Positions 13,293-29,172 of a stretch of DNA of 64,000 nucleotides are shown here, piece by piece; position 1 is the stretch's first letter, and every line of letters starts with the position of its first letter. The notes beneath the pieces are model-generated. The model was not told the origin of the DNA and did no database searches. It saw nothing but the letters and a program-made list of their open reading frames with translations. The DNA is from Clostridia bacterium. Lineage in GTDB: Bacteria > Bacillota > Clostridia > Oscillospirales > CAG-272. A program made the position numbers and the translations under genes. The DNA lies in the NCBI GenBank assembly GCA_017411745.1, contig JAFQPM010000008.1, positions 1-64,000 of the forward strand, given 5' to 3'.

Positions 13293-14486
13293 ATGAAAAT
13301 TCTGGTTATCAACGCCGGAAGCAGTTCTCTGAAGTATCAGCTCTTTGATATGGAGAACGGTCAGGTGCTCGCAAAGGGACTTTGCGAAAAGATCGGCTTG
13401 ACGGGAGCGATCACCCACAAGCGCCCCGGCAAAGAGACCTACGAGGCAGATTATCCCATGCCTACTCACAACGAAGCTATTGCTCTCGTTCTTAAGCTGC
13501 TCACAGACTCCGAGTACGGAGTTATCTCGAGCGTAGACGAGATCAGCGCGGTCGGTCACCGCTTTGCTCACGGCGGCAAGCTCACCAAGTCCTGCCTGCT
13601 CGGCGAAGAAGAGATCAAGTACATCGAATCCATCATTCCCATCAATCCCCTTCACGGTCCTCCCGCACTCAAGGGCGTTGCCGCTTGTAAGGCTCTGATG
13701 TCAAACACCCCTCACGTAGGCGTTTTCGACACCTCCTTCTACTCGGGATTCGACAAGAAGGCGTATATGTACGCGCTTCCTTATGAATGGTACGAGAAGT
13801 ACGGCGTGCGCCGCTACGGCTTCCACGGAACCAGCCACCGCTTTGTTTCCGCAAAGGCGTGTGAGTTCCTCGGACTTGATTATAACAGCACGAAGATCGT
13901 TTCCTGCCACATCGGCTCGGGCTCGTCCATCACCGCAGTCAAGAACGGACAAGCAGTAGATACCTCCCTCGGCTTCACTCCTCAGGAGGGTCTGCCCATG
14001 GGTACCCGCTGCGGCTCTATCGACCCCTCGATAGTTCCCTACATCATCGAGCAGACAGGTATGAGCGCGGCTGAGGTAAATGATATAATGAACAAAAAAT
14101 CGGGACTTCTCGGTGTTTCGGGCGTGTCCAACGACGCGCGCGACGTCTGGGCTGCAGCCGCAGAGGGCAACGAGAGAGCTCAGCTCGCTATGGACCTTCT
14201 CGTTCACAACGCGAAGAAGATCATCGGCTCGTACGTAGCCGAGATGAACGGCATCGACGTTCTCATCTTCACCGCAGGTCTTGGCGAAAACGACCGTAAG
14301 ACAAGAGAGCTTATCGCGGAGAATATGGAATTCTTCGGCATCAAGCTCGACAAGGATGCAAACCTTAACGGTCCCAGAGGTGAGAACCTCGTGATCAGCG
14401 CACCCGACTCGAAGGTAAAGGTCGTAGTCATTCCCACCGACGAGGAATATATGATCGCGTCCGACACCTACGAGCTCGTTAAATAA
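13293..14486 (+). CDS. ackA: Acetate/propionate kinase
   Basis: Converts acyl phosphate plus ADP to carboxylate plus ATP. The 397-residue length and motifs are those of acetate kinases: NAGSSSLKYQ at residues 7-16 (phosphate 1 region) and GFHGTSHR in the middle. As first gene of the BMC operon it probably acts on propionyl phosphate made by PduL, giving propionate and ATP. It has no N- or C-terminal encapsulation helix, which fits a cytosolic site. AAAGGA lies about 12 bases before the ATG, a slightly long spacing. Confidence 0.93.
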   Translation: MKILVINAGSSSLKYQLFDMENGQVLAKGLCEKIGLTGAITHKRPGKETYEADYPMPTHNEAIALVLKLLTDSEYGVISSVDEISAVGHRFAHGGKLTKSCLLGEEEIKYIESIIPINPLHGPPALKGVAACKALMSNTPHVGVFDTSFYSGFDKKAYMYALPYEWYEKYGVRRYGFHGTSHRFVSAKACEFLGLDYNSTKIVSCHIGSGSSITAVKNGQAVDTSLGFTPQEGLPMGTRCGSIDPSIVPYIIEQTGMSAAEVNDIMNKKSGLLGVSGVSNDARDVWAAAAEGNERAQLAMDLLVHNAKKIIGSYVAEMNGIDVLIFTAGLGENDRKTRELIAENMEFFGIKLDKDANLNGPRGENLVISAPDSKVKVVVIPTDEEYMIASDTYELVK

Positions 14487-14530
14487 GCGACCAATTAAAT
14501 TGAAATAAATTTTGGAAAGGATATACAAAA

Positions 14531-15352
14531 ATGGCAAAATCACCTTTTGAAATCAAAAAAGAAATCTGTGACATCGGTAAAAGAATTTACGATCACGGCT
14601 TCGTAGCAGCAAACGACGGTAACATCTCCGTTAAGGTCGGCCCCAACGAGTACTACTGCACTCCTACAGGCGTATCCAAGGGCTTCATGACCCCCGATAT
14701 GATCATCAAGATCGACGGTAACGGAAACAAGATCGACGGTAAGCTCAATCCCTCCTCCGAGATCAAGATGCACATGAGAGTTTATCAGGAGCGTCCCGAC
14801 GCAAACGCAGTCGTTCACGCTCATCCCCCCGTTGCAACCGCTTTCACCGTTGCAGGCGTAGAGCTCGACCAGTACATTCTCCCCGAGGCTATCCTTACCA
14901 TTGGTAACGTTCCTACCTGTGACTACGGTATGCCCTCCACCATGGAGATCCCCGAGTCCCTTATGCCCTACATCCAGAAGCACGACGCATTCCTTCTCAA
15001 GAACCACGGTGCTCTTACCGTTGGTAACACCCTTCTCCGCGCTTGCTTCACTATGGAAGAGGTTGAGTTCAACGCAAAGATCAACCTTTACGCTCGTCAG
15101 ATCGGCGTAGGTAAGAACGCACACATCGAAGAGATCTCCTGCTACGAGCTCGAAAGACTTATGGAGCTCCGTAAGAAGATGGGTCTCCCCGGCAAGCACC
15201 CCGGATGCAAGTCCTGCCCCAACAACGGCACTGCAAACTGCAAGTGCAAGGATAACGGCGGCAGCTGCTCTTGCGGTTCTCACTCTGCTCCCGCAGGTGA
15301 CGACCTCGTTGCTGAGATCACCAGAAAAGTAATCGCTGCTCTCGGTAAGTAA
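14531..15352 (+). CDS. Class II aldolase with C-terminal encapsulation peptide
   Basis: Predicted to cleave fuculose- or rhamnulose-1-phosphate to dihydroxyacetone phosphate and lactaldehyde. The class II aldolase fold (residues 1-215) shows the zinc-ligand pattern VHAHPP, with a later NHG, and the catalytic SSEIKMH region. Compared with free fuculose aldolases of about 215 residues, it carries an extra tail of about 55: a Cys-rich linker with CKSC, CKC and CSC, then an amphipathic helix (DDLVAEITRKVIAALGK). Such a helix behind a linker is the usual BMC encapsulation signal, and a class II aldolase is the signature enzyme of GRM5-type loci. Whether fuculose, rhamnulose or both are used cannot be told; no sugar kinase or isomerase gene is in the window. 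Confidence 0.88.
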   Translation: MAKSPFEIKKEICDIGKRIYDHGFVAANDGNISVKVGPNEYYCTPTGVSKGFMTPDMIIKIDGNGNKIDGKLNPSSEIKMHMRVYQERPDANAVVHAHPPVATAFTVAGVELDQYILPEAILTIGNVPTCDYGMPSTMEIPESLMPYIQKHDAFLLKNHGALTVGNTLLRACFTMEEVEFNAKINLYARQIGVGKNAHIEEISCYELERLMELRKKMGLPGKHPGCKSCPNNGTANCKCKDNGGSCSCGSHSAPAGDDLVAEITRKVIAALGK

Positions 15353-15446
15353 TTCGAATTCTACATTATAATATAGGACTACGGAGATCCGCGGCAACAT
15401 GCCGTCGGATATTCAAAAAAGTTATCGAAAGGAGCGTCCGATCATT

Positions 15447-16907
15447 ATGGCAATGAATCTCACAGAGGCACAGATAAATGCTATCGTAGCACGCGTCGTG
15501 TCCGAGTTCAAATCCCCCGCAGCACCCACAACTTCGGGTAAGCCGTGGGATTCCACACAGTACAAAGGACGCAAGCTCATCGGCGTTTACGAAACGATGG
15601 AGGAAGCCATTGAGGTCGCTAACGCAGGATACAGAGCCGTCCGTTCAATGTCCGTAGCAGACAGAGAAAAGATCATTACGGCAATCCGCCGCTACACCCG
15701 TGAGGAAGCACACATCCTCGCAGAAATGGGCGTTGCCGAAACCAAAATGGGACGCGTCGACCACAAGTATGCAAAGCATCTTCTCGTGGCAGACAAGACC
15801 CCCGGTACAGAGGACATCGTAGAGGAAGCAAGAACAGGCGACAACGGCCTGACGCTCACCGAAATGGCTCCCTTCGGAGTCGTCGGAGCTATCACTCCCT
15901 CCACCAACCCCTCCGAAACCGTAATTTGTAACAGTATCGGTATGATCGCCGCAGGCAACGGAGTCGTTTTCAACCCCCACCCCGGCGCGATCGCTACCTC
16001 CAACTACGCAGTCGACCTCGTTAACCGCGCGGTCCACAGCGCAGGCGGCCCTGAGGTGCTGGTCGCAAGCGTAGTCAAGCCCACGCTCGACACCGCTAAC
16101 GTAATGTATAAGCACCCCTCCATCAAGCTTCTCGTCTGCACGGGAGGCCCCGGAGTAGTAAAGGCAGTTCTTTCGTCGGGCAAGAAGGCAATCGGCGCGG
16201 GCGCGGGCAATCCCCCCGTTATCGTTGACGATACCGCTGACATCGATAAGGCGGCAAAGGACATCATCGACGGCTGTACCTTCGACAACAACCTCCCCTG
16301 CATCGCAGAAAAGGAAGTTTTCGTATTCGACAACGTCGCTGACAGACTCATCGCAGGAATGCTCAAGAACGGCTGTATCAAGCTCACGAAGGCGCAGGCA
16401 GACGAGCTTGCAAAGATCGTTCTCGTCGAAAAGACCGACAAGAACGGCAAGGTCAAGAAGATCGTCAACCGTGACTGCGTCGGCCGCGACTGCCGCGTGA
16501 TCCTCGAGAAGATCGGCATCAAGGTCGGTCCCGAGATCCGTTGCGCTATCGCAGAGGTTCCCTTCGAGCACGATTTTGTTCAGGAAGAGCTTATGATGCC
16601 TATCCTCGGAATCGTTCGCGTAAAGAACATCAACGAGGCGATAGACCTTGCAGTTAAGGCAGAGCACGGCAACCGCCACACTGCTCATATGCACTCGAAG
16701 AACATCGACAACCTCACCGCATTCGCTCGTGCGGTCGAGACCACGATCTTCGTAAAGAACGCTCCCTCCTATGCAGGCATCGGCTTCGGCGGCGAGGGTC
16801 ATACCACCTTTACGATCGCAGGTCCTACGGGTGAGGGTATTACCTCGGCGCGCAGCTTCACAAGAAAGCGCCGCTGCGTAATGGTCGACAGCTTCAGAAT
16901 TATCTAA
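15447..16907 (+). CDS. pduP: CoA-acylating aldehyde dehydrogenase (PduP-like)
   Basis: Oxidises propionaldehyde with NAD+ and CoA to propionyl-CoA inside the compartment. The 486-residue protein begins with an amphipathic helix (LTEAQINAIVARVVSEF) and a Pro/Ala/Thr-rich linker, the N-terminal encapsulation signal known from PduP. The ALDH fold follows, with the catalytic Cys in NNLPCIAEKE and a GAGNPPV stretch. The ATG at 15447 has AAAGGAG upstream; an upstream in-frame ATG at 15399 would add 16 residues that do not belong to the family. It is placed after the aldolase and before the alcohol dehydrogenase. Confidence 0.92.
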   Translation: MAMNLTEAQINAIVARVVSEFKSPAAPTTSGKPWDSTQYKGRKLIGVYETMEEAIEVANAGYRAVRSMSVADREKIITAIRRYTREEAHILAEMGVAETKMGRVDHKYAKHLLVADKTPGTEDIVEEARTGDNGLTLTEMAPFGVVGAITPSTNPSETVICNSIGMIAAGNGVVFNPHPGAIATSNYAVDLVNRAVHSAGGPEVLVASVVKPTLDTANVMYKHPSIKLLVCTGGPGVVKAVLSSGKKAIGAGAGNPPVIVDDTADIDKAAKDIIDGCTFDNNLPCIAEKEVFVFDNVADRLIAGMLKNGCIKLTKAQADELAKIVLVEKTDKNGKVKKIVNRDCVGRDCRVILEKIGIKVGPEIRCAIAEVPFEHDFVQEELMMPILGIVRVKNINEAIDLAVKAEHGNRHTAHMHSKNIDNLTAFARAVETTIFVKNAPSYAGIGFGGEGHTTFTIAGPTGEGITSARSFTRKRRCVMVDSFRII

Positions 16908-16930
16908 AATCTACGAAAGGATACATAGAG

Positions 16931-18154
16931 ATGGATATCACAGCTTCTCAGATCGAAAGCATCGTTCGTTCCGTGATCAACTCCATGGGCGCGGGCGCTG
17001 CCCCCACGGCAAACGGTCCCCTTCCCAAGACTGCTCACGTTGCAATGCTTACCGGTGAAAAGAAAATCGAGCTTCAGGAAATTCCCCTTCCCGAGCTTGG
17101 AGATAACGATATTCTCGTCAAGGTCGAGGGCGCGGGAATCTGCGGAACCGACGTTCACGAGTGGAAGATGGACCCCTTCGGTCTTATTCCCGTAATTCTC
17201 GGACACGAGGGTACCGGTGAAGTAGTTTATCTTGGCAAAAACGTCAAGTGCGACACCGCCGGAAAGTCGCTTAAGGTCGGCGACAAGATCGTAACCTCGG
17301 TCATCAGCTGCGGCGAATGCTATGCTTGCCGCATGGTTCCCGGAAGAACAAACCTCTGCGACAATCAGGGCGTTTTCGGTCTTATCGGTGACAAGAGAGG
17401 TCAGGCAGAAGGCAACCGCGCAAACGGTTGGTTCGCTGACTATATGGTTATTAAGGGAGGTAAGGGCGTTACCTATTTCCAGGTCAACGAGCTTAACCTC
17501 AAGCAGAGAATGATCCTTGAGCTTGCTTGCGTTTGCGTACACGCACTCGAGCGCAGCCAGAGCACAGGACTTCTCAACTTCGGCTCCAAGGTTCTCGTTC
17601 AGGGCTGCGGTCCCGTTGGTCTGGTTATGATCACGGTTCTCCGCGCAGCTGGTATCAACCACATCATCGCGGTTGACGGAAACGAGGACAGACTTAAGGT
17701 AGCACAGAAGATGGGCGCTAAAACGACCATCTGCTTCAAGAGACCCGACGAGGACACTCTCGAAAAGAGAGTTGCAAAGGTAAAGGCCGTTGCAAACAAC
17801 GTCGGTGCAGACTTCGCATTCCAGTGCACAGGCGCTCCCATCGCGGCAGCTGATATTTACAGCTACATCCGTCGCGGCGGCGGAATGTGCGAGATGGGCT
17901 TCTTCGTAAACAACGGCGAATACAAGGTAAATCCCCACTTCGCTATGTGTAACAAGGAGATCAACATCGTCGGCTCGTGGGACTACTCCGCTGAGGACTA
18001 TCCCAAGACCGTGGCATTCCTCAAGCAGTGCCAGGAAATGAACATTCCGATCGAGGATCTTATCACTCACTCCTTCCCTCTCGACAAGATGAACGAGGCT
18101 ATGGAAACAAACGTAGCACAGAAGGGTATTAAGATCTGCTATATAAATGACTGA
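16931..18154 (+). CDS. Zinc alcohol dehydrogenase, BMC-targeted
   Basis: A medium-chain Zn-dependent dehydrogenase of 407 residues. The N-terminus (ITASQIESIVRSVINSM) is an amphipathic encapsulation-type helix followed by a Gly/Ala/Pro linker. The catalytic domain shows CGTDVHE and GHEGTGEV (catalytic zinc) and a structural-zinc lobe CGECYACR...C; the cofactor fold has GCGPVG. In the compartment it would regenerate NAD+ by reducing propionaldehyde to propanol, and could also reduce lactaldehyde to 1,2-propanediol. In this locus it takes the place of the iron-type PduQ of the classical pdu operon. Which aldehyde dominates is inference. Confidence 0.88.
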   Translation: MDITASQIESIVRSVINSMGAGAAPTANGPLPKTAHVAMLTGEKKIELQEIPLPELGDNDILVKVEGAGICGTDVHEWKMDPFGLIPVILGHEGTGEVVYLGKNVKCDTAGKSLKVGDKIVTSVISCGECYACRMVPGRTNLCDNQGVFGLIGDKRGQAEGNRANGWFADYMVIKGGKGVTYFQVNELNLKQRMILELACVCVHALERSQSTGLLNFGSKVLVQGCGPVGLVMITVLRAAGINHIIAVDGNEDRLKVAQKMGAKTTICFKRPDEDTLEKRVAKVKAVANNVGADFAFQCTGAPIAAADIYSYIRRGGGMCEMGFFVNNGEYKVNPHFAMCNKEINIVGSWDYSAEDYPKTVAFLKQCQEMNIPIEDLITHSFPLDKMNEAMETNVAQKGIKICYIND

Positions 18155-18168
18155 TCAGGAGTCTGGAT

Positions 18169-18510
18169 ATGGCACAGGCACTCGGAATGATTGAGGTCTA
18201 CGGCTACACGACCTCGATAGTAGTAGCAGACTTGGTGGCAAAGACCGCCGACGTCAAGGTTGTAGCCATTGATAAGAATAAGCCCGCAAACGCAGAGGCG
18301 TGCGCGGTACCGCTTGTTATGGTAGTCAAGTTTATGGGCAACGCGGGAGCAGTTCAGTCTGCTCTTGACGCGGGTGTCGAGGAAGCGAAGAACCGCGGAC
18401 TTTACATAACCTCCAAGGTCATCGCAGGTCTTGACGATCAGGTACAGTGGTTTGCGGACCTCAACGCAACGGGCAAGGATAAGCTTCGCAACATGGAGCT
18501 TTCCGAATAA
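18169..18510 (+). CDS. BMC-H shell protein with enlarged pore loop and C-terminal tail
   Basis: A hexameric shell-protein domain (starts AQALGMIEVYG) of 113 residues, longer than the usual 90. Aligned by eye to the PduA-like proteins downstream, it has about 9 extra residues where they have the pore motif KIGSG; the loop here reads NKPANAEACAV and contains a cysteine. The C-terminus replaces the usual PRPH end with GLDDQVQWFADL and a charged tail. The gene lies 14 bases after the alcohol dehydrogenase. It probably forms a shell facet with a different pore from the other BMC-H proteins. Confidence 0.88.
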   Translation: MAQALGMIEVYGYTTSIVVADLVAKTADVKVVAIDKNKPANAEACAVPLVMVVKFMGNAGAVQSALDAGVEEAKNRGLYITSKVIAGLDDQVQWFADLNATGKDKLRNMELSE

Positions 18511-18554
18511 ACAAGTTTAAAAAAATAAGAACATAAAAAAGGAGATTTTTTATC

Positions 18555-18830
18555 ATGAACGAAGCATTAGGAATGGTTGAGACCAGAGGTCTCGTAGCAG
18601 CTATTGAGGCAGCAGATGCTATGGTTAAGGCAGCAAACGTACAGCTCATCGGCTCCGAGAAGATCGGTAGCGGACTCGTATCCGTTATGGTTCGCGGCGA
18701 CGTTGGAGCAGTAAAGGCAGCAGTTGAGGCAGGCGGCGCAGCAGCAAGCAGACTCGGCGAGGTTATCGCAACTCACGTAATCCCCAGACCTCACACCGAC
18801 GTAAACAAGCTCCTCCCCACACTTGGTTAA
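18555..18830 (+). CDS. BMC-H shell protein, PduA-like (copy 1)
   Basis: A 91-residue canonical BMC-H protein. It has the N-terminal [20 protein letters not shown], the pore motif KIGSG, and the end VIPRPHTDV. It should form the main hexagonal facet with a small polar pore for diol passage. It is almost identical to the gene at 19374-19649, differing by a Ser-Arg/Ala-Asn pair near residue 74. The leader (AAAAAGGAGATTTTTTATC before ATG) is also shared, suggesting recent duplication or gene conversion. Confidence 0.95.
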
Positions 18831-18944
18831 TTTTAGGCTTCGCCGAAAATTAACGTGATATTTGTCCTGCGGACAAGTGAAATGTTGCTTTGCAACATGA
18901 AATACGCCTCCGGCGTGTGAAATGTCGCTTGCGCGCAAGCGACG
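18831..18944. repeat. Mini-hairpin array between shell genes
   Basis: A chain of small perfect stem-loops: GGC/GCC, GTCC-tgc-GGAC, GTTGC-ttt-GCAAC, ACGCC-tcc-GGCGT and GTCGCTTGC-gc-GCAAGCGAC, mostly spaced by GTGAAAT-like words. It begins at the stop codon of the first PduA-like gene and ends before the next shell gene. Similar arrays occur at 25633-25801 and 51410-51615. It could stabilise mRNA segments and tune shell protein ratios. Confidence 0.75.
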
Positions 18945-19007
18945 AGAAGAGTTGCGAATACAAAAAAGCTCGTCCGAGGACAGATCAAACTATTTAGGAG
19001 ACGAATT

Positions 19008-19292
19008 ATGGAAAAAGCAATTGCACTGCTTGAAGTTCAAGCTATGGTTACGGCTATAGTCGGACTTGACGCAATGGTTAAGACGGCGGACGTTAAGCTC
19101 ATCCACGTCGAAAAGCGCTTGGGCGGAAGACTTGTGACAGTTGTTGTTGAAGGTACCGTTTCGGCGGTAACTGCCGCACTTGAGGCGGGAGTTGAAGCCG
19201 CACAGGCAGTCGGAAACGTAATGTGCAAGGAAGTAATTGCACGTCCCCACCCCGACATCATAAAATTCATCAAGAGTGACAAGGGTGTTTAA
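19008..19292 (+). CDS. BMC-H shell protein with Arg-rich pore loop
   Basis: A 94-residue BMC-H domain (EKAIALLEVQAMVTAIVGLDAM). At the pore position it has RLGGR rather than KIGSG, so the pore would be lined by bulkier, positively charged side chains. The end reads VIARPHPDI. TAGGAGAC precedes the ATG. It lies between the two nearly identical PduA-like copies. It is probably a second facet type with different transport selectivity. Confidence 0.92.
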   Translation: MEKAIALLEVQAMVTAIVGLDAMVKTADVKLIHVEKRLGGRLVTVVVEGTVSAVTAALEAGVEAAQAVGNVMCKEVIARPHPDIIKFIKSDKGV

Positions 19293-19373
19293 TCTTAAAC
19301 CTCTTTCATTATAAGCGCTCGCAAGAGCAACACAAAATTTTAAAAAAATTTATCCAAAAAGGAGATTTTTATC

Positions 19374-19649
19374 ATGAATGAAGCATTAGGAATGGTTGAG
19401 ACCAGAGGTCTCGTAGCAGCTATCGAGGCAGCAGATGCTATGGTTAAGGCAGCTAACGTACAGCTTATCGGTTCCGAGAAGATCGGTAGCGGACTCGTAT
19501 CCGTTATGGTTCGCGGCGACGTTGGAGCAGTAAAGGCAGCAGTTGAGGCAGGCGGCGCAGCAGCAGCTAACCTCGGCGAAGTTATCGCTACTCACGTTAT
19601 CCCCAGACCCCACACCGACGTTAACAAGCTTCTCCCCACCCTTGGTTAA
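19374..19649 (+). CDS. BMC-H shell protein, PduA-like (copy 2)
   Basis: Near-identical second copy of the 91-residue shell protein at 18555-18830, with KIGSG pore and PRPH end. The DNA is also nearly identical, with scattered silent changes, so the copies are held together either by recent duplication or by gene conversion. Two gene doses of the major facet protein would raise its share in the shell. Confidence 0.95.
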
Positions 19650-19685
19650 TTCTTACCAAACAAGAATCTATCAAGCACTTAAAAA

Positions 19686-19748
19686 GGTGGCGTGACGCTT
19701 AAAGGCACGTCGTGCTCTCTGCCCATCAAAAATGGGCAGAGAGCCACC
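19686..19748 (+). other. Structured RNA element between shell genes and pduL
   Basis: An outer stem GGTGGC (19686-19691) / GCCACC (19743-19748) encloses a strong 13-bp hairpin, GCTCTCTGCCCAT / ATGGGCAGAGAGC (19714-19744; its last two bases overlap the outer stem). No T-run follows directly (next is CCCCAAAAACAAT), so it is unlikely to be a classical terminator. It could block 3' decay of the shell mRNA or partly terminate, lowering expression of the genes behind it. Confidence 0.5.
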
Positions 19749-19844
19749 CCCAAAAACAATAATTTTCGTATAAAAGCGTTTAAACCTTGAATTTGACCGT
19801 TTTTATATGAAAATTATCGCAAAAAATCGAAAGGAACGTAAAAA

Positions 19845-20498
19845 ATGAGCATTTCGAACAAGGATATTGAAAATATCGTCAAGAAGATAGTACTTGAAAT
19901 GGCGGGCGAGACCGCCAAGGGCGGCAACGAGATCCCCGTAGGCATCTCCAACCGTCACATTCACCTGACCAAAGAGGATCTCGAGACCCTTTTCGGTGCG
20001 GGTTACGAGCTTACTCATCTTAAGGATCTTTCCCAGCCCGGTCAGTACGCCTGCAAGGAGACGTTGACAATCGTCGGTCCTTCTATGAGAGCTATTGAAG
20101 GCGTCAGAGTGCTTGGTCCTCTCCGTAAGGCAAGCCAGGTTGAAATTTCCGTGACCGACTCTTACGTTCTCAAGGTAAAGCCCCCCGTTCGCGAGTCGGG
20201 CAAGCTTGACGGAAGCGCACCTATCACCATCATCGGTCCCAAGGGTATCGTAAGACTCAATCAGGGCTGTATCATAGCAAACCGCCATATCCACATGAGC
20301 CCCGACGACGCAACTCGCTTCGGAGTCAAGGACGGCGACTATATCGACGTTGACGCCATGAGTGGCACCAAGCGCACCCGCTGGTTCGACGTTCAGGTCA
20401 GAGTACACCCCGATTTCCGCCTTGAAATGCACGTCGACACCGACGACGCAAACGCGGTCGGCTTCAAGAACGGATCTACCGTTACTCCCGTAAAGTAA
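19845..20498 (+). CDS. pduL: BMC phosphate acyltransferase PduL
   Basis: Transfers the propionyl group from CoA to phosphate, recycling CoA inside the shell. The 217-residue protein starts with an encapsulation helix (ISNKDIENIVKKIVLEM) and a short linker, then two PduL half-domains with metal-ligand histidines in SNRHIHLT (about residue 36) and ANRHIHMS (about 145). Length and motifs match PduL rather than the unrelated housekeeping Pta. The next gene, eutN-like, is 13 bases downstream. Confidence 0.94.
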   Translation: MSISNKDIENIVKKIVLEMAGETAKGGNEIPVGISNRHIHLTKEDLETLFGAGYELTHLKDLSQPGQYACKETLTIVGPSMRAIEGVRVLGPLRKASQVEISVTDSYVLKVKPPVRESGKLDGSAPITIIGPKGIVRLNQGCIIANRHIHMSPDDATRFGVKDGDYIDVDAMSGTKRTRWFDVQVRVHPDFRLEMHVDTDDANAVGFKNGSTVTPVK

Positions 20499-20511
20499 GA
20501 GGTAAAGAAAG

Positions 20512-20775
20512 ATGTTAAAAGGAAAAGTAATAGGCAATATCGTATCGACCAACAAGCTCGACAAGCTCGTAGGATACAAGTTCCTTGAAATTCAGGTTAT
20601 TGAAAAGAACGAGCTGACCGATAAGTTCATCGTTGCAGTTGACCGCACGGTGAGCGCAGGTATCGGTGAGGAGGTCCTCGTAACCACGGGAAGCAGCGCG
20701 CGCGTAGCCGTTGGAGATGCAAATTCTCCCGTCGACGCAGTCGTTGTAGGAGTAGTCGATAAAAAACAGAGCTAA
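20512..20775 (+). CDS. BMC-P pentameric vertex protein (EutN/CcmL)
   Basis: An 87-residue EutN/CcmL/PduN family protein that caps the twelve vertices of the shell. Family marks seen are MLKGKVIGNIVSTNK at the start, LVGYKFLEIQ, VDRTVSAGIGEEVLVTTGSSAR, and the C-terminal DAVVVGVVD. Only one such gene is present, as is usual in compact GRM loci. Confidence 0.94.
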   Translation: MLKGKVIGNIVSTNKLDKLVGYKFLEIQVIEKNELTDKFIVAVDRTVSAGIGEEVLVTTGSSARVAVGDANSPVDAVVVGVVDKKQS

Positions 20776-20806
20776 CAGATCAGATACATAGAAACAGAGG
20801 AAGATT

Positions 20807-22138
20807 ATGTCTTTAGATGAACTCAAAAAAATAATGCAAGATCACAGCATCGTCGGTGCGGGCGGCGCGGGATTCCCTTCCTACGCAAAGCTTGCCGAGG
20901 GCGCTGAGTTCTTGGTCATCAACTGCGCGGAATGCGAGCCCTTGATCTACACAGACTTCATGCTTATGCGTGAAAAAATGGACAAGATCGTAGGCGGCGC
21001 GCAGATAATAATGGAAAACACGGGGATCAAGCACACCTTCATCTCTATCAAGGAGCACAGAGGTCACATGCTCGGATACACCGACGGTCAGGTTCTCGGC
21101 GAGGGTGTTTCGGTCAAGCTTCTCCCTAACGTATATCCTATGGGCGACGAGATCAACCTCATCTACGAGACCACGGGTCGCGTAGTAAAGCCGGGTTGTC
21201 TCCCCATCACCTCGGGCATCATCGTATTCAACGGTGAGACCGTATATAACGTATGGCGTGCGTACAATATGAACCGTCCCGTCGTTTCCGACTGGTTCAC
21301 GATCGGCGGCGATATCCCCAAGCGTTACGTCGTTAAAACCCCTATCGGCACTCGTCTCAAGGACGTTTTCGATATGCTGGGCGTAACCTTTAACACTGAT
21401 ACCCACGCTATCATCAACGGCGGACCCTCTATGGGTAGGATCGACGACCTTAACTCGATCGTAGTCAACAGAACCTCAAAAAGCTTCCTTATTCTTCCCA
21501 AGACTGCCCGTGCGGTCAAGAATAAGCAGGTACATATAGAAGATATGCTTCGCCGCGCGGCTTCGGCTTGCTGCGGATGCTCAAGATGCACCGAGATGTG
21601 TCCGAGACACACCTTGGGTTACCCCATCGAGCCCCACAAGATGATCAGAGTTGCAAACGGAAACGCTGCCGCCGACCATCCCGAGCTCGTAACCACGGCA
21701 TCGCTCTGCTGCTCTTGCGGAATCTGTGCCGAGGTCTGCTGTCAGGAGATCTCCCCCAAGGACGTTATCCTCAATCTCAAGGGCATTCTCGCAAAGAACA
21801 AGCTCAGATTTACCCCCACGGGTGAGGAATACAAGGTTTCGGAGGATCGCCCGAACCGCATGATTGCTTCTCACCGTTGGGAAGATATGCTGAACGTTCA
21901 CAAATACGACGTCGTTCCCGAATTCGTATTCGAAAAGCTCAAGGTCAAGAGAGTTGAGGTCCCCATGGGCACTCACATCGGCGCAAAGGCTATTCCCATC
22001 GTTAAGGTTGGAGATATGGTCGAGGAGGCACAGCGTATAGCTGACGCGGCTCCCGGCTTGTCTATCCCCCAGTTCGCATCGATCTCGGGTAAGGTCACAT
22101 ACGTTGACGAAAACAAGGTCGTCATCGAGGCAGTTTAA
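20807..22138 (+). CDS. pduS: PduS-like RnfC-type Fe-S flavoprotein
   Basis: A 443-residue flavoprotein of the RnfC/PduS family. The N-terminus has the NAD/FMN-binding GAGGAGFPSYAK and NCAECEPL; the second half has two [4Fe-4S] motifs, CxxCxxCxxxCP (CGCSRCTEMCP) and CSCGICAEVC. PduS reduces cobalamin in the classical pdu system. Here the dehydratase is a glycyl radical enzyme with no need for B12, so this protein more likely moves electrons across or at the shell, perhaps through the Cys 38 cluster of the following PduT-type shell protein, or recycles NAD. Confidence 0.92.
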   Translation: MSLDELKKIMQDHSIVGAGGAGFPSYAKLAEGAEFLVINCAECEPLIYTDFMLMREKMDKIVGGAQIIMENTGIKHTFISIKEHRGHMLGYTDGQVLGEGVSVKLLPNVYPMGDEINLIYETTGRVVKPGCLPITSGIIVFNGETVYNVWRAYNMNRPVVSDWFTIGGDIPKRYVVKTPIGTRLKDVFDMLGVTFNTDTHAIINGGPSMGRIDDLNSIVVNRTSKSFLILPKTARAVKNKQVHIEDMLRRAASACCGCSRCTEMCPRHTLGYPIEPHKMIRVANGNAAADHPELVTTASLCCSCGICAEVCCQEISPKDVILNLKGILAKNKLRFTPTGEEYKVSEDRPNRMIASHRWEDMLNVHKYDVVPEFVFEKLKVKRVEVPMGTHIGAKAIPIVKVGDMVEEAQRIADAAPGLSIPQFASISGKVTYVDENKVVIEAV

Positions 22139-22167
22139 CGGTTTTATCGTAAGAAAGGATTACATAA

Positions 22168-22713
22168 ATGTATCAGGCAATAGGTGTAATTGAACTTAAA
22201 AGTATAGCAAAGGGCATTGAGGCTACCGACGCCGCGCTCAAGAGTGCGGGCGTAAGAGTAGTCACCGCCCACGCGGCTTGTCCCGGAAAGTACGAGATCA
22301 TTCTCACGGGTACTATCTCCGACGTAACGAGCGCAGTCGACCACGTAAAGAGCCGCTTTGACGAGAAGCTCGTCGACTCCTCTATTATGGGTCGCATCGA
22401 TCCTCAGGTCATCACTGCCCTCTTTGGCACTGCTCCCACCGAAAAGAAAGGAAGTCTCGGCATTATCGAGACCTTCTCCGCCGCGTCTATCATCAAAGCG
22501 GCTGATATCGCAGTCAAGACCGCAAAGGTCTCGATCTTCGAGCTCCGTACCTCTCGCGGTATGGGCGGTAAGGGTGTTTGCCTCGTAACAGGTGACGTCG
22601 GTGACGTTACCGCCGCAGTTGAGGCAGGTGCACAGCACGCAAAGGATCAGGGAGTATTCTTCGGAAGCTCCGTTATCGCTGCTCCCCACGCTGAACTCTG
22701 GGATCAGATGTAA
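22168..22713 (+). CDS. pduT: BMC-T shell protein, PduT-like, predicted Fe-S pore
   Basis: A 181-residue tandem-BMC trimer-forming protein: domain one (YQAIGVIELKSIAKGIEATD) and domain two (GSLGIIETFSAASIIKAADI). It resembles PduT throughout, including ACPGKY with the cysteine at position 38, which in PduT holds a [4Fe-4S] cluster in the central pore. It lies directly after the PduS-like flavoprotein, supporting electron transfer through the shell. The end, APHAELWDQM, also matches PduT. Confidence 0.93.
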   Translation: MYQAIGVIELKSIAKGIEATDAALKSAGVRVVTAHAACPGKYEIILTGTISDVTSAVDHVKSRFDEKLVDSSIMGRIDPQVITALFGTAPTEKKGSLGIIETFSAASIIKAADIAVKTAKVSIFELRTSRGMGGKGVCLVTGDVGDVTAAVEAGAQHAKDQGVFFGSSVIAAPHAELWDQM

Positions 22714-22978: not shown

Positions 22979-22999
22979 AAGAAAAAGGAGAACAAACTT

Positions 23000-25531
23000 A
23001 TGAGTCAGATTAAATTTGTAATAGAAAAAAGCCCCCGAATACAGAAGCTTGTTGACCATCTTTACGCCAACATGCCCGAGATCGAGGCTGACAGAGCCGA
23101 GCTCATAACCGAGAGCTACAAGGAGACCGAGGGTCTTCCTATCGTCAAGAGACGCTCGGCGGCATTCCGTCACATTATGGAGAACATTCCGATCGTTATC
23201 CGCCCCGACGAGCTCATCGTAGGAAGCAACTCGATCGCTCCCCGCGGCTGTCAGACCTTCCCCGAGTACTCGTTCGAGTGGCTTGAAAAGGAATACGACA
23301 CGGTCGCGACGAGAGAAGCCGACCCGTTCTACATATCCCCCACTACCGTTGAAAGACTTAAGAAGGTATATCCCTATTGGAAGGGCAAGACCGTAAGCGA
23401 TCTCGCGGCTCAGTCGATGGACCCCGAGGTTCTTGACGTATTCCTCAACCACGGCGTATTCACCGTCGGTAACTACTTCTACAACGGTATCGGTCACATC
23501 AACGTAGACTACGCGAAGGTTATTAACAAGGGTCTCGAGGGCGTTATAGAGGAAACAAAGGCTGCACTTGCGAAGCTTTATATCGGAAACGGCGACTATC
23601 TGCGCCGCAAGAACTTTCTCGAATCCGTAATCGAGAGCTGTGAAGCGGTCATTACCTACGCAAAGCGCTATTCCGAGCTTGCTCGGCAGGAAGCGCAGAG
23701 CTGTAACGACAGCACCCGCAGAGCCGAGCTTATAAAGATCTCCGAGAACTGCGCTCGCGTTCCCGCAAAGCCCGCGCGCAACTTCTACGAGGCTTGTCAG
23801 GCGTTCTGGTTCATTCAGCAGCTCCTTCAGTGTGAGTCGAGTGGACACTCGATCTCTCCCGGACGTTTCGACCAGTATATGTATCCTCTCTTCAAGCAGG
23901 ATATCGACGCAGGCAGACTTACCTACGAGCAGGCGCAGGAATATATCGACTGTATCTGGGTAAAGCTCAACGATCTTAACAAGGTCAGAGACGCGGCAAG
24001 CGCCGAGGGCTTTGCAGGCTACGGACTTTTCCAGAACCTCATCGTCGGCGGTCAGAACGAGGACGGAGTAGACGTTACCAACGATCTCTCCTATATGTGC
24101 CTTGAGGCAACCATGCACGTCCGTCTGCCCCAGCCCTCTCTTTCGATCCGTGTATGGAACTGCTCCCCCCACGATCTGCTTATCAAGGCGGCAGCTGTCA
24201 CCCGCGAGGGTCTCGGTGTTCCCGCATTCTATAACGACGAAGTTATCATTCCGTCCATTATGTCCAGAGGTCTCACGCTTCAGGATGCCCGCGACTACTG
24301 TATCATCGGTTGCGTAGAGCCCCAGAAGGGCGCGAGAACAGACGGCTGGCACGACGCGGCATTCTTCAATATGTGCCGTCCTCTCGAGCTTGTTTTCTCT
24401 AACGGCTACGACAAGGGCGAGCTGATCGGTCTTCAGACGGGCGACGTCGAGAAAATGACCACCTTCGAGGAGTTCTTCGACGCTTACAAGGCTCAGCAGC
24501 TCCATATGATCGAAATGATGGTCCACGCCGACAATGCGGTCGACTACGCGCACAGCGTTCGTTGTCCTCTGCCCTTCCAGTCCTGCCTGTGCAACGACTG
24601 TATCGAGCGCGGCGTATCGCTTCAGGAAGGCGGCGCACACTATAACTTCACGGGTCCTCAGGGCTTCGGTATCGCAAATATGACCGACGCGCTTCTCGCT
24701 ATCAAGACCCTCGTCTTCGAGCAGAAGAAGGTGACCATGGCAGAGATGAAGCAGGCGCTTGCCGACAACTTCGGTAAGGGCATTATGCAGAAGAAGGCGA
24801 TCGAGCTTACCACCGAGGTCGCAAAGCAGCTTGATGCTCAGGGAGTTGACGTAAACGAGGCGGCTATCAGAACTATCTACGACAGCATCACGGGCGCAAC
24901 TCACATTTCCGACGCAAAGAAGGCAAGATATCAGGAGATCCTCGATATGATCAACGCCCTTCCCAAGTACGGTAACGATATTCCCGAGGTCGACGCGTTC
25001 GCGCGCGAGGTCGGAAACACCTATACAAAGCCCTTCGAGAACTTCACCAACAACCGCGGCGGTATGTTCCAGGCAGGACTCTATCCCGTATCGGCTAACG
25101 TTCCGCTTGGCTATCAGACAGGCGCAACTCCCGACGGCAGACTTGCATACACTCCCATCGCGGACGGCGTAGGTCCTGCTTCGGGCAGAGACGTCAAGGG
25201 TCCCACCGCAACCGCAAACTCGGTCGCCAAGCTCGACCACGGAATTGCCTCCAACGGAACCCTCTTCAACCAGAAGTTCCATCCCTCCGCACTCACAGGT
25301 ATGGCAAGCCTTGAAAAATTCGTCGCTTACCTGCGCGGATACTTCGATCAGAAGGGTATGCACGTTCAGTATAACGTAGTCTCCAAGGAGACCCTTCTCG
25401 ACGCGCAGAAGAACCCCGAAAAGTATAAGAACCTTGTCGTAAGAGTCGCAGGCTATAGCGCACTCTTCACTACCCTCTCGCGCTCGCTCCAGGACGATAT
25501 CATCAACCGTACCGAGCAAAGCGGACTGTAA
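23000..25531 (+). CDS. Glycyl radical diol dehydratase (B12-independent)
   Basis: Predicted 1,2-propanediol dehydratase of the glycyl radical family, making propionaldehyde. The 843-residue protein has the thiyl cysteine in IIGCVEPQ (Cys 438; Glu 440 is the base used by diol and choline enzymes) and the glycyl radical loop RVAGYSALFTTLS (Gly 818). The start at 23000 follows AAGGAG; an upstream frame into the repeat is not family sequence. The aldolase partner argues for propanediol rather than choline or glycerol as substrate. I see no clear encapsulation helix. It would be inactivated by oxygen, so the organism must be anaerobic. Its activase is the next gene. Confidence 0.92.
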   Translation: MSQIKFVIEKSPRIQKLVDHLYANMPEIEADRAELITESYKETEGLPIVKRRSAAFRHIMENIPIVIRPDELIVGSNSIAPRGCQTFPEYSFEWLEKEYDTVATREADPFYISPTTVERLKKVYPYWKGKTVSDLAAQSMDPEVLDVFLNHGVFTVGNYFYNGIGHINVDYAKVINKGLEGVIEETKAALAKLYIGNGDYLRRKNFLESVIESCEAVITYAKRYSELARQEAQSCNDSTRRAELIKISENCARVPAKPARNFYEACQAFWFIQQLLQCESSGHSISPGRFDQYMYPLFKQDIDAGRLTYEQAQEYIDCIWVKLNDLNKVRDAASAEGFAGYGLFQNLIVGGQNEDGVDVTNDLSYMCLEATMHVRLPQPSLSIRVWNCSPHDLLIKAAAVTREGLGVPAFYNDEVIIPSIMSRGLTLQDARDYCIIGCVEPQKGARTDGWHDAAFFNMCRPLELVFSNGYDKGELIGLQTGDVEKMTTFEEFFDAYKAQQLHMIEMMVHADNAVDYAHSVRCPLPFQSCLCNDCIERGVSLQEGGAHYNFTGPQGFGIANMTDALLAIKTLVFEQKKVTMAEMKQALADNFGKGIMQKKAIELTTEVAKQLDAQGVDVNEAAIRTIYDSITGATHISDAKKARYQEILDMINALPKYGNDIPEVDAFAREVGNTYTKPFENFTNNRGGMFQAGLYPVSANVPLGYQTGATPDGRLAYTPIADGVGPASGRDVKGPTATANSVAKLDHGIASNGTLFNQKFHPSALTGMASLEKFVAYLRGYFDQKGMHVQYNVVSKETLLDAQKNPEKYKNLVVRVAGYSALFTTLSRSLQDDIINRTEQSGL

Positions 25532-25546
25532 GATAAGGGGGCGAAT

Positions 25547-25942
25547 GCGGAACCCTTTTTTAAGGAAAAAGGGTTCCGCACCTCCCAAAAACCTTCAATT
25601 AGGATAGCGAAAACGACAGACGGATTAATTTCAAAAATGGACTTAATCCATTTTTAAAAGTTTCGCTCAAGCCTTTTCAAAGGCTTGTCCGAGCCGCCGA
25701 GATCGGCGGTCGCCTCCGCAGAGGCGAAATCTCTCCTATGCGTTTTTCTTTTTGCATTACTTTTTCTTTTTGCGCCTCCTGTGTCAAAAAGAAAAAGTAA
25801 TATTAAAACCTTGAATAAGGATAGTAATGGTTACAAAATTACACCTCTCTACACGGCGTAGTGGAATAAAATAGCAAAAATTATTACTCGCCTTATTTGA
25901 AGTTTTTGGAATTCTTAAAACCTTTTTTGAGAGAAAGGGTTT
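25547..25942. repeat. Hairpin-ended inverted element with inner hairpin array
   Basis: Left end: hairpin GCGGAACCC...GGGTTCCGC (25547-25579), CCTCCCAAAAACCTTCAATTAGGATAG. Right end, inverted: CCTTATTTGAAGTTTTTGG then hairpin AAAACC...GGTTT (25891-25942). Between them is an array of perfect hairpins at 25633-25655, 25668-25687, 25694-25709, 25711-25726 and 25756-25801; the last is followed by another tail copy (25805-25824). The 450-base gap between dehydratase and activase genes holds no gene. Confidence 0.65.
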
Positions 25943-25981
25943 AAGTCGCCGAAGGCAAAAAATTCACGAAAGGAGACCGAA

Positions 25982-26776
25982 GTGAAAAGCATATACGAAC
26001 AAACGGGACGTATCTTTGATATTCAAAGATATTCGATTCACGACGGTCCCGGAATCAGAACGATAGTCTTCCTCAAGGGCTGCTACCTCCGTTGCAAGTG
26101 GTGCTGCAACCCCGAATCGCAGGAATACGGCATACAAGAAATGACCCGTGCGGGCAAAAAAGAGATAATGGGTCGCGACGTCACCGTTGCCGAGGTCATG
26201 GACGAGATCGCGGGAGATCGCATCTACTACGCTCGAAGTGGCGGCGGACTGACACTTTCAGGCGGCGAATGCATGGCACAGCCCGAGTTTGCAGAGGCGC
26301 TTTTGCGCGCGGCACACGATTACGGCTTCAACACCGCGATCGAAACCACCGCGTTTGCAAGCCGCGAGGTCGTACAAAGACTGCTCCCCCACGTCGACCA
26401 TTTCTTAATGGATATAAAGCATATGAATTCCGACAAGCACGAGGAATTCACCTCGCAGCGAAACGAAAAGATCCTTGAAAACGCAAAATATATCGCCGAA
26501 AACGCAAATCACCTCGTGATCCGCGTTCCCGTAGTCCCCACCTTCAACGCGACACCCTCCGAGATAGCCGACATCGCACGTTTTGCAGACTCTCTGCCTA
26601 ACGTGACCGAGCTTCACCTGCTCCCCTATCACCGTCTCGGTCAGGACAAGTACACGGGACTCGGCAGAACCTATCTGCTCGACGGCATCGCCCCCCCTAC
26701 TGCTGACACGATGAATATGCTGCTTGAGGCGGCAAAGAGCGTCTCGACCAAGCTTCACGTACAGATCGGCGGATAA
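25982..26776 (+). CDS. Glycyl radical enzyme activase (radical SAM)
   Basis: Generates the glycyl radical on the dehydratase using S-adenosylmethionine. The CxxxCxxC cluster motif is GCYLRCKWC (Cys 34, 38, 41), followed by the family NPESQ and a GGE SAM motif (LSGGECMAQ). At 264 residues it lacks the two-cluster ferredoxin insert found in many diol and choline activases, and so is built like the pyruvate formate-lyase activase. Start is GTG at 25982 with AAAGGAGA upstream. Confidence 0.93.
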   Translation: MKSIYEQTGRIFDIQRYSIHDGPGIRTIVFLKGCYLRCKWCCNPESQEYGIQEMTRAGKKEIMGRDVTVAEVMDEIAGDRIYYARSGGGLTLSGGECMAQPEFAEALLRAAHDYGFNTAIETTAFASREVVQRLLPHVDHFLMDIKHMNSDKHEEFTSQRNEKILENAKYIAENANHLVIRVPVVPTFNATPSEIADIARFADSLPNVTELHLLPYHRLGQDKYTGLGRTYLLDGIAPPTADTMNMLLEAAKSVSTKLHVQIGG

Positions 26777-26812: not shown

Positions 26813-27184
26813 ATGTCTAATCAATTCGAATATCAGGATAAAATGCGAATAGTGCAGGAGCTGGTGCCGGGTCGCCAGATCACTCTTGCCCATATTATCG
26901 CTAACCCCGACCCCACGCTCTATCAGAAGCTGGGTCTTGACCCCAAGCTCGATTACGAAAAGGCAGCTATCGGCGTTCTTACAGTCAGCCCTGCCGAGAC
27001 CGCGGTCATTACCGCCGATATCGCGCTCAAATCCTCGGGCGCTGACCTCGGTTTCGTCGATCGCTTCTCGGGCACGCTGATCATCACAGGAAAGGTTGCC
27101 GAGGTCGAAGCCTCCTTTACCGCAATTACCGAGTATTTCAGAAACGTTCTCAAATTCTCTGTTTGTGAAATGACCAGAACGTAA
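26813..27184 (+). CDS. BMC shell protein, EutS/PduU type
   Basis: A circularly permuted BMC-H protein of 123 residues. The sequence follows EutS/PduU: RIVQELVPGRQITLAHIIA at the start, then IGVLTVSPAETAVITADIALKSS, GFVDRFSGTLIITG and a CEMTRT end. This subfamily forms a hexamer whose pore is closed by a small beta-barrel and is thought to dock accessory proteins. In PduU the N-terminal part interacts with PduV, and here the PduV/EutP-like GTPase is the next gene. ATG at 26813 is preferred, with GGAGG 7 bases before. Confidence 0.9.
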   Translation: MSNQFEYQDKMRIVQELVPGRQITLAHIIANPDPTLYQKLGLDPKLDYEKAAIGVLTVSPAETAVITADIALKSSGADLGFVDRFSGTLIITGKVAEVEASFTAITEYFRNVLKFSVCEMTRT

Positions 27185-27229: not shown

Positions 27230-27479
27230 CGCAAGCGAGATTTACACGAGTTTGCCTATGGCAAACTTTGTAACCAAAAGAATTTCCCCACAAAAAATAT
27301 TTAACACACTATCCATCTTATATTGTAAAATGGGGGAACCAAAGACTATCCTTGTTGGAGTTTTTTGGTGCTACCTTTTTTGCAAAACCCTCTATAATCC
27401 CATCTCCAATCGTAAAATGGGTAACACAAAAACTATCCTTCGGGAAGCTTTTTGGCTACCTTTTTCTCGAAAAAGGTAG
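27230..27479. repeat. Duplicated hairpin-tail elements before the GTPase gene
   Basis: Two small hairpins (CTCGC/GCGAG at 27230-27241; GTTTGCC/GGCAAAC at 27251-27267) precede two tandem minus-oriented copies of the hairpin element: CTATCCTT...GAGTTTTTTGG at 27346-27371, with a damaged hairpin, and CTATCCTTCGGGAAGC...CTACCTTTTT/AAAAAGGTAG at 27433-27479. Each copy is preceded by GTAAAATGGG. The second hairpin ends 7 bases before the GTPase ATG, leaving little room for a normal ribosome site (AGGA at 27478-27481). Confidence 0.6.
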
Positions 27480-27486
27480 GAAAAAT

Positions 27487-27921
27487 ATGAAAAAACTGAT
27501 ACTAATGGGGCGCGTAGCCGCGGGCAAGACCACCTTGACCCAAGCCTTAAAGGGCGAGCAGCTCCACTATTGCAAAACTCAATATATAAATTATATGGAC
27601 ACGATCATCGACACTCCGGGCGAGTACACCGAGGTGCACACGTTGGCGGCGGCGTTGGCGGTCTATTCATACGAGGCTGACGTTATCGGACTTGTAGTCA
27701 GCGCGAACGAGCCGTTCTGCATATTTCCGCCGAACTGTGTCCACCACGTCAACCGCGACGTCATCGGCATAATTTCGGGCATAGACAAGCCCGATGCCAA
27801 CGTGCCGCTTGCGGAGCGCTGGCTGAAGAACTGCGGACTCAAGAGCGAAAAGCTTTTTTACGTCAGCTCCTACACCCGCGAGGGCTTGGACACGATCATC
27901 GACTATCTCAATCAAGAATAA
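27487..27921 (+). CDS. EutP/PduV-like small GTPase
   Basis: A 144-residue Ras-like P-loop protein of the EutP/PduV family. Motifs are GRVAAGKT (P-loop, residues 8-15), DTPGEY (switch II) and GIDKPD in place of the usual NKxD. PduV associates with the outside of the Pdu shell, and a role in compartment dynamics has been proposed. It is followed directly by the ParA-like gene, so the two may act together in positioning. Start ATG 27487; upstream in-frame codons come from the repeat element. Confidence 0.87.
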   Translation: MKKLILMGRVAAGKTTLTQALKGEQLHYCKTQYINYMDTIIDTPGEYTEVHTLAAALAVYSYEADVIGLVVSANEPFCIFPPNCVHHVNRDVIGIISGIDKPDANVPLAERWLKNCGLKSEKLFYVSSYTREGLDTIIDYLNQE

Positions 27922-27939: not shown

Positions 27940-28731
27940 ATGGCTCAGACCAAAACGATCTGCTTCGCCAATAACAAGGGCGGAAGCGGAAAATCCACCA
28001 CGTGTGCAAACGTGGGATACTCATTGAGCACTCTCGGTAAAAAGGTGCTTCTCATCGACGCAGATATGCAGATGAACCTCACTCTGCAATTTTTCGACGA
28101 CGAAAAGTCGCTTGAAATGGCAAAGGGTGATAAAAACCTCTATGTCGGCGTGGTTGAGCAAAAGGATCTGACCGATTTCGTCGTTCCCACCGAATATGAA
28201 AATCTCGACCTGATCCCCTCGTCCACCCTGATGAGTGGAATCGAGTTTCAGCTCTTCACCAAGTGGCAAAGAGAGTTTATTCTCCGCCAAGGACTGAAAA
28301 AGATCAAGGAATCGGGCAAATATGACTACATTCTCATCGACGCTCCCCCCACGCTTGGTTGCTGGGTCATGAACATCATGTGCGCGTCGGACAAGCTCGT
28401 AATTCCCGTCGAGGCTTCACCGTGGGGACTTTTCGGACTTGCCAATATGTTTGAATTTTACGAGCAGGTCAAGCTCATCTCCCCCTCGCTTGAAATTCTC
28501 GGCATTGCCATCACAAAGGCAAGCGAGCGCAAAAATTATTTCAAACAGACCGTCGAGACCCTCTCGTCACTTGACAACGTGCGCCTTCTCTCGTCAATAA
28601 TCCGTATCGACAGTACGGTAGAATGGTCGCAGGACAACAGTAAACCCGTTATGGCTTATAAGCGCACCAGCCGCGCCGCGCTGGAATATATGGAAATGGC
28701 AAAGGAGATCATGAAATATGCCGATAGGTAA
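27940..28731 (+). CDS. ParA/MinD-family ATPase in BMC operon (McdA-like role proposed)
   Basis: A 263-residue deviant-Walker ATPase: KGGSGKST (residues 13-20, with signature lysine K13), LLIDADMQMN (A' motif) and YILIDAPP (Walker B), plus the late VIPVEASPWGL. This is the ParA branch that positions plasmids, chromosomes and, as McdA, carboxysomes on the nucleoid. It begins 18 bases after the EutP-like gene with GGAGG, and its last 14 bases overlap the next gene, so the pair is co-translated. Unlike beta-type McdA, it keeps the signature lysine. Position in the operon argues for spacing or segregating the glycyl-radical compartments; that is inference. Plasmid origin is unlikely, since no rep, parB or parS-like repeats are seen. 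Confidence 0.87.
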   Translation: MAQTKTICFANNKGGSGKSTTCANVGYSLSTLGKKVLLIDADMQMNLTLQFFDDEKSLEMAKGDKNLYVGVVEQKDLTDFVVPTEYENLDLIPSSTLMSGIEFQLFTKWQREFILRQGLKKIKESGKYDYILIDAPPTLGCWVMNIMCASDKLVIPVEASPWGLFGLANMFEFYEQVKLISPSLEILGIAITKASERKNYFKQTVETLSSLDNVRLLSSIIRIDSTVEWSQDNSKPVMAYKRTSRAALEYMEMAKEIMKYADR

Positions 28732-29128
28732 GGACAGCATCACGAAAAGAGTAGCAAAGCAGACCCCCGCAAACGATATCGTAACCGAGACCCTGACCCC
28801 TCCGCAGACGGAAGACAAAAATATTGCTCCCGAGCTTGTAGCAACCGTTGGCGTAGCTCCCGCAAAGACCACCAAAAAAGCGCCCGCGAAGAAGACTACT
28901 ACCTCTAAAACAACGGCATCAAAGGCAACAACTGCAAAGTCAACTGCCGAGAAAAAGCCTGCAGCTCCCAAAAAGACCGCAAGCAAGCCTGCCGAGGCCA
29001 AGACAGTTGAGACCGCCGTGCTTGCAAACGTCGCTCCCGAGACCGTAGAAAAGGTCATCGGTCACAAGGAAGACGAAAAGTACGAGAAGGTTCAGATCGG
29101 ACAAAAAATGCCCGATTTCCTGCTTTAA
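28718..29128 (+). CDS. Low-complexity ParA partner (McdB-like role proposed)
   Basis: A 136-residue protein in three parts. The N-terminus, MPIGKDSITKRVAKQ, is basic, like the peptides by which ParB-type partners stimulate ParA. Residues about 45-100 are low-complexity Ala/Lys/Thr/Ser/Pro and probably disordered. The C-terminus, EKVQIGQKMPDFLL, looks like a short linear motif. It overlaps the ParA gene by 14 bases and is the last gene before a strong terminator. No similarity to characterised McdB can be claimed by eye; the parallel is architectural. The C-terminal motif could bind shell or cargo. It could also be a nucleoid- or shell-associated linker unrelated to positioning. Confidence 0.7.
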   Translation: MPIGKDSITKRVAKQTPANDIVTETLTPPQTEDKNIAPELVATVGVAPAKTTKKAPAKKTTTSKTTASKATTAKSTAEKKPAAPKKTASKPAEAKTVETAVLANVAPETVEKVIGHKEDEKYEKVQIGQKMPDFLL

Positions 29129-29137
29129 TATGATTAC

Positions 29138-29172
29138 AAAACAGAGAAGACTCAAAAACTTCTCTGTTTTTT
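29138..29172 (+). terminator. Terminator of the BMC operon
   Basis: AAACAGAGAAG pairs with CTTCTCTGTTT (29138-29169) followed by a run of six T. It starts 10 bases after the stop of the ParA partner gene. Confidence 0.92.

Follow-up and report, generated by a model that had tools for sequence, protein, structure and literature searches.

A ParA-type ATPase and a small partner protein with two conserved ends accompany GRM5-like microcompartment genes in gut Clostridia and probably position the compartments

The closest described systems are the McdA-McdB pairs of alpha- and beta-carboxysomes, each a ParA-type ATPase with a small low-complexity adaptor near the microcompartment (BMC) locus. In H. 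neapolitanus, McdA binding requires the N-terminal 20 amino acids of McdB, which also suffice for it, with Lys7 critical, and the purified protein was reported not to bind DNA (PMC12204374). McdB was also reported to lack similarity to ParB (eLife; PMC6328274). Cargo targeting by carboxysome McdB has been ascribed to an invariant C-terminal Trp, and the McdB-like proteins of GRM and PDU loci have instead a Tyr or Phe within the last five residues that was proposed to serve as the Trp does (both from PMC11321042). McdAB-like systems at GRM/PDU loci are an already published idea (MacCready 2020 as cited in PMC11321042; PMC8262871). The pair described below falls under the same proposal and the same broad BMC class, with a C-terminal Tyr or Phe within the last five residues, and judging by their description the published pairs are likely of the same family.

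The window analyzed here is a stretch of 64,000 nucleotides from a Clostridia bacterium (contig JAFQPM010000008.1 of a 1.84-Mb assembly in 34 contigs). It contains a BMC operon that starts with ackA at 13293 and has the following features, all on the forward strand.

13293..22713, +: remainder of the BMC operon, with AckA, class II aldolase, AldDH, zinc alcohol dehydrogenase, four BMC-H, PduL, EutN-type BMC-P, PduS-like and BMC-T genes (translations and Pfam matches; order kept in relatives)
22982..26776, +: glycyl radical enzyme (PFL2-3 family, 1.2e-237) and radical-SAM activase (from its translation), the GRM signature enzymes
26813..27184, +: EutS-like BMC-H shell protein (Pfam BMC 3.3e-12; EutS model 4.4e-30)
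27487..27921, +: EutP/PduV GTPase, directly 5′ of parA (Pfam PduV-EutP 2.2e-46)
27940..28731, +: ParA-type ATPase, 263 amino acids (ATG-to-stop reading frame and translation), putative motor of the pair
28718..28731, +: 14-bp overlap of parA and the partner gene, the last 14 bases of parA, which may couple their translation
28718..29128, +: partner, a putative adaptor, 136 amino acids (ATG-to-stop reading frame), net charge +8, predicted to be disordered
28718..28762, +: N-terminal basic motif of the partner, M[PSA][IV]GKx[SA]Ix[RK] (counts over 96 partners), candidate ParA-contact peptide
29084..29125, +: conserved C-terminal tail of the partner, EKVQIGQKMPDFLL, pattern [LM]Px[YFHW]L[LM], candidate shell-binding peptide
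29138..29170, +: terminator hairpin at the operon end (RNA fold −13.8 kcal/mol, z −4.38)

The original prediction, made from the DNA alone, placed the pair in the BMC operon with a terminator after it, and this is what we observe. The parA gene starts 18 bp after the EutP/PduV stop, and none of 200 shuffles folded as stably as the hairpin, which a simple consensus terminator scan missed because its loop is 9 nt long. The prediction of a GRM5-type compartment holds for gene content, with an unusual gene order. GRM5 is defined by a 1,2-propanediol dehydratase-type glycyl radical enzyme, a class II aldolase, a lactaldehyde-reductase-type dehydrogenase, and PduS and PduT-like proteins (PMC6325248), and the translations and profile matches of the window agree with this definition, the substrate of the glycyl radical enzyme being putative. 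The gene order of the window, AckA-aldolase-AldDH-dehydrogenase-shell-GRE-activase-EutS-EutP-ParA-partner, departs from the usual GRE-activase-EutS-EutP-aldolase-dehydrogenase-shell.

Several other features of the locus can be recorded here. Short repeats and inverted repeats that resemble one another (AAACTATCCTTCGGGAAG, CCTTTTTCTCGAAAAAGG and others like them) occupy operon gaps at 22737-22996, 25749-25953 and 27313-27494, and the repeat-bearing EutS-EutP gap spans about 300 bp in the window versus less than 20 bp in most relatives. Two near-identical BMC-H genes (18555-18830 and 19374-19649; 91 amino acids, few differences) flank a third, an arrangement also present in relatives. A gene for a TMEM164-family membrane protein (Pfam 3.5e-18) lies 3′ of the terminator at 29288-30031 and is probably unrelated, since the downstream genes vary among relatives.

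To count BMC genomes we used EutN, the BMC vertex gene, as the marker. Among 146 genomes of the window's family (f1), 35 have EutN and 19 have the ParA (56-100% identical), and all 19 fall within the 35, so that EutN is present in 19/19 ParA genomes versus 16/127 others (Fisher 1e-14) and the ParA is found in 0/111 EutN-free genomes of this family. A sample of 250 genomes from Lachnospiraceae, the family of Blautia massiliensis, gave 28 with ParA, 73 with EutN and 27 with both (EutN in 27/28 ParA genomes versus 46/222 others; Fisher 1e-15), leaving one ParA genome without detectable EutN. In a further family (f186), the ParA is present in 9/9 genomes and shell genes in 8/9, the exception being an assembly that is 76% complete. 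Genome samples at the level of the phylum and class returned mostly Soj background or few matches. A scan of 84,980 species yielded 80 closest orthologues (63-95% identical) from Oscillospiraceae-type bacteria and Lachnospiraceae, including Blautia, Mediterraneibacter and Faecalicatena.

The pair lies away from the BMC operon in many Lachnospiraceae, but shell genes were still present in 22/22 such genomes tested. The BMC regions of 18 of these 22, together with two from family f186, contain GRM5-like gene sets, with a class II aldolase in 17/20 and a glycyl radical enzyme in 13/20 of the stretches read. A functional tie of the pair to its EutP and EutS neighbors, which had also been proposed, is tentative, as the pair is far from both in many Lachnospiraceae, although EutP occurs somewhere in 7/7 genomes tested. 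The original prediction had named as evidence against itself a pair that mostly neighbors partition genes instead of BMC loci, and we find the reverse, with the pair in or co-occurring with BMC genes nearly everywhere. Because the pair is nearly confined to gut bacteria with sugar-fermenting microcompartments, it most likely spaces these along the chromosome and shares them out, in the way that a related pair handles carboxysomes.

The ATPase is a deviant-Walker ParA with signature Lys13, as had been read from the sequence. Its P-loop is NNKGGSGKST (27970-27999), Pfam assigns AAA_31 (E 7.9e-53) and also CbiA/ParA, and Lys13 and Lys18 are invariant in an 18-row ParA alignment. In a tree built without McdA, the ParAs of the pair form one clade separate from chromosomal Soj with 100% SH-aLRT support. 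Against the sequences of solved structures, the window ParA scores 113 bits with ParA, 91 bits with Soj and 58 bits with McdA (6NOO), which places it outside the McdA sequence subfamily. Since it is nearer to Soj than to McdA, we class the pair as working like McdAB and not as containing an McdA orthologue; the predicted likeness to McdAB survives in this functional sense. The ParA was rejected as the chromosomal Soj because the window's genome carries its own soj-spo0J at a separate locus beside mnmG and rsmG. A plasmid or phage origin of the pair was also rejected, as the plasmid and phage collections gave generic ParAs only, all at most 41% identical (best matches 41% and 34%).

The partner of the window has the N-terminus MPIGKDSITKRVAKQ, a middle rich in Ala, Lys and Thr, and the tail given above. 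A partner gene lies directly 3′ of parA for 97/123 distinct ParAs, and in 91 of these 97 the two genes overlap by either 14 bp (69) or 10 bp (22). The predicted overlap with a 136-residue partner gene is confirmed in the window, and the same 14 bp are kept in 19/19 loci of its family, including 18/18 relatives, all of which also have the N-terminal motif and the tail. To avoid circularity, we selected reading frames by the N-terminal motif alone and then scored the tail, whose pattern ends 95 of the 98 frames selected; two more nearly match and one is spurious. Among about 6,200 reading frames of the fetched loci, a single unrelated one bears the tail pattern.

The basic N-terminus and conserved C-terminus noted at the outset are thus real, and they ([IV]GKxSIxR and [LM]Px[Y/F/H/W]L[LM]) are the sole conserved parts of the usual partner. 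Over 96 complete partners, Gly4 occurs in 95, Lys5 in 85 and Arg or Lys at position 10 in 92, while Pro at −5 and Leu at −2 are present in 96/96. The residue at −3 is Tyr in 58, Phe in 15, His in 15 and Trp in 8. It is Phe in the window, which therefore has an aromatic within its last five residues, with the 15 His-bearing partners as the exception, since His does not count as aromatic in the sense used for McdB. These ends are retained as the length of the partner varies from 63 to 375 amino acids. AlphaFold2 predicts the window partner to be disordered except at its end (mean pLDDT 53, pTM 0.12). The model is most confident in the tail (block pLDDT 72-78), which is mostly coil.

The partner is a small adaptor-like protein encoded next to its ATPase and shares with the McdBs a basic N-terminus, a low-complexity body and a conserved aromatic near the C-terminus. 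It differs from them in its putative cargo, here a GRM5-like metabolosome, and in its −3 residue, which is Tyr, Phe, His or Trp and is preceded by an invariant Pro at −5, whereas carboxysome McdBs have an invariant Trp. A tail that is short, conserved and hydrophobic also resembles shell-binding peptides in general, and the partner gene sits among cargo genes, so that the partner could instead be a luminal cargo or scaffold with a C-terminal encapsulation peptide, with ParA acting in assembly and not in positioning. We think this improbable: the encapsulation-like helices that we recognized by eye in the operon are N-terminal (AldDH, alcohol dehydrogenase and PduL), the modeled tail is mostly coil, and the partner of a cytosolic, nucleoid-bound ParA should presumably face outward.

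In 12/97 partners, the same two ends enclose a ParB N-terminal domain, which the window partner lacks. The ParB-type partners are cleanly split from the others by a core model (E ≤2.5e-17 versus ≥0.88). Pfam ParB_N matches were 1.2e-13, 5.8e-10 and 1.2e-10, plus a weak one of 7.3e-5 below the cut-off, and a four-row profile of ParB-type partners matched Noc (4.7e-16) and Spo0J (2.9e-12) among PDB sequences. A model of one such partner (L123), of which the core alone is confident, matched ParB-CTP structures in Foldseek at 7e-8. In the longest partner (375 amino acids, locus L204), a long Ala/Lys/Pro tract and the ParB_N domain occur together between the conserved ends. The ParB_N subset, with a domain classically found in partners of ParA, independently supports the partner as a ParA partner, and it sets this pair apart from McdAB, given the reported lack of ParB similarity in McdB. 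PadC links ParA to a partner other than DNA, the bactofilins, and we know of no genomic tie of PadC to microcompartments. The Myxococcus xanthus protein (PDB 6RYK) was among the Foldseek matches through its ParB-like domain, but differs from the partners in cargo and tail.

The nearness of the ParA to Soj and the ParB_N domain, which matches Noc, Spo0J and ParB, could be read as signs of DNA partition, with a plasmid- or chromosome-type ParA and its ParB sitting by chance in a BMC operon. Of the alternatives weighed here, we consider this the least probable. In the ParB-type partners the domain is followed by a linker and the tail, and we found no helix-turn-helix and no C-terminal dimerization region; these partners also lack the ENxQR motif seen in Spo0J of the window's genome, which makes CTP hydrolysis doubtful. 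In addition, the genome has its separate soj-spo0J, plasmid and phage homologues do not exceed 41% identity, and the co-occurrence with BMC genes is near-exclusive. The cargo of this pair, unlike that of Soj-Spo0J/Noc, would be a protein shell.

A quick ParA tree seems to scatter the ParB-type rows, with five changes, but a single clade is not rejected (AU p 0.62), and we therefore do not claim that the domain was gained or lost several times independently. The earliest branches show the linker-form partner alone. A tentative and, in our judgment, unlikely origin for the adaptor would be domestication of a ParB, in which Soj and ParB were together recruited to the microcompartment, the DNA-binding half swapped for a shell-binding tail, and the ParB domain left to decay to a disordered linker in most lineages, the window's included. 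In a weaker form of this idea, an existing disordered adaptor would have captured a ParB domain in one branch.

The linker itself suggests another role. Ala makes up 21%, Lys 20% and Thr 11% of the usual middle, the median net charge of the partners is +9, and the Ala/Lys/Thr/Pro composition brings a sub-threshold similarity to the histone-H1-like Hc2. A Lys-rich partner might thus tether compartments directly to DNA as Hc2 would, with ParA loading or recycling it. However, the Hc2 match is compositional and well under the cut-off, and we rejected it as an identification; the net charge of some partners is zero or negative (down to −2) and others have ParB_N in place of the tract, in each case with both ends kept. 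We regard direct tethering as very improbable.

The pair tracks one version of the GRM5-like locus. In 19/19 loci of the window's family with the ParA, the pair stands at the end of the BMC operon in the order EutS-EutP-ParA-partner, and it is present in 19/19 family loci of the window's architecture in which the locus end is assembled. By contrast, 15 of the 16 EutN genomes without the pair have the other GRM5 gene order, and the stretches read contain neither a ParA nor a tail-motif gene; the sixteenth follows the order of the window, on a contig that ends inside the glycyl radical enzyme. In this family, 15/35 BMC genomes do without the pair. Six family loci (L028, L030, L031, L033, L034 and L036) have shell genes and the pair but neither the glycyl radical enzyme nor its activase, from which we conclude that the pair follows the shell and does not depend on the glycyl radical enzyme. 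These six have a class II aldolase wherever the contig extends far enough, and their compartment possibly stops at lactaldehyde. Among the loci without the enzyme, two class II aldolase-like genes are seen in three, and the gene 3′ of the partner resembles one for a ketose-bisphosphate aldolase.

A Lachnospiraceae clade, with 17 of the 80 closest-orthologue loci, has the ParA without a recognizable partner (L110, L118, L124, L125, L129, L132, L135, L137, L139, L140, L142, L143, L149-L151, L161 and L162). For this clade, searches out to 9 kb, of eight BMC regions and, at low sensitivity (positive control E 0.009), of the whole genome gave no partner. Its parA usually adjoins an AraC-type regulator and in some loci a rhamnulokinase-like gene, as might be expected if the pair regulated BMC or fucose/rhamnose genes and did not move organelles. 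Such a role appears very improbable, since the partner has no DNA-binding domain and elsewhere parA is as a rule overlapped by a partner gene whose product has a shell-type tail.

What we observe are the genes, the conserved ends of the partner, the genomic association of the pair with BMC genes of GRM5 type, and a ParB domain in a subset of partners. From these we infer, with a probability of roughly 0.7, that the two proteins form a module that positions organelles in the manner of McdAB; the comparative tests support the positioning originally proposed, and ParA activation, shell binding and compartment movement are the inferred parts. Weighing against it are the His at −3 in 15 partners, the clade with ParA alone, the BMC genomes of the window's family that do without the pair, and the two ParA genomes in which EutN or shell genes are missing. 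In such a module, ATP-dimerized ParA would bind the nucleoid without sequence specificity. The basic N-terminal peptide of the partner ([IV]GKxSIxR) would dock on ParA and activate it, and the C-terminal [LM]Px[aromatic/His]L[LM] peptide would grip the GRM5-type shell from outside, the two being held apart by a spacer that is usually an Ala/Lys-rich, probably disordered tract and in some species a ParB-type N-terminal domain. Compartments coated with the adaptor would locally free ParA from DNA and track the resulting ParA gradient, and this tracking would space them and split them between daughter cells.

To the published idea, the present analysis adds a strict genomic association, the locus architecture that goes with the pair, counts for both terminal motifs, gene coupling and the ParB-domain subset. 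We found no report of a ParB domain in BMC adaptors in the literature searched, and the texts searched on GRM/PDU pairs mention neither ParB_N-bearing members nor the tracking of locus architecture. The placement and inheritance of catabolic microcompartments is an open question, a worked-out system being available for carboxysomes only. The family defined here is widespread in gut Clostridia, and its two short terminal peptides are suited to simple fusions. The identification of GRM5-type loci with and without the pair allows one organelle to be compared in its presumably positioned and unpositioned forms. The ParB-domain subset, in turn, would link organelle positioning to chromosome partition.
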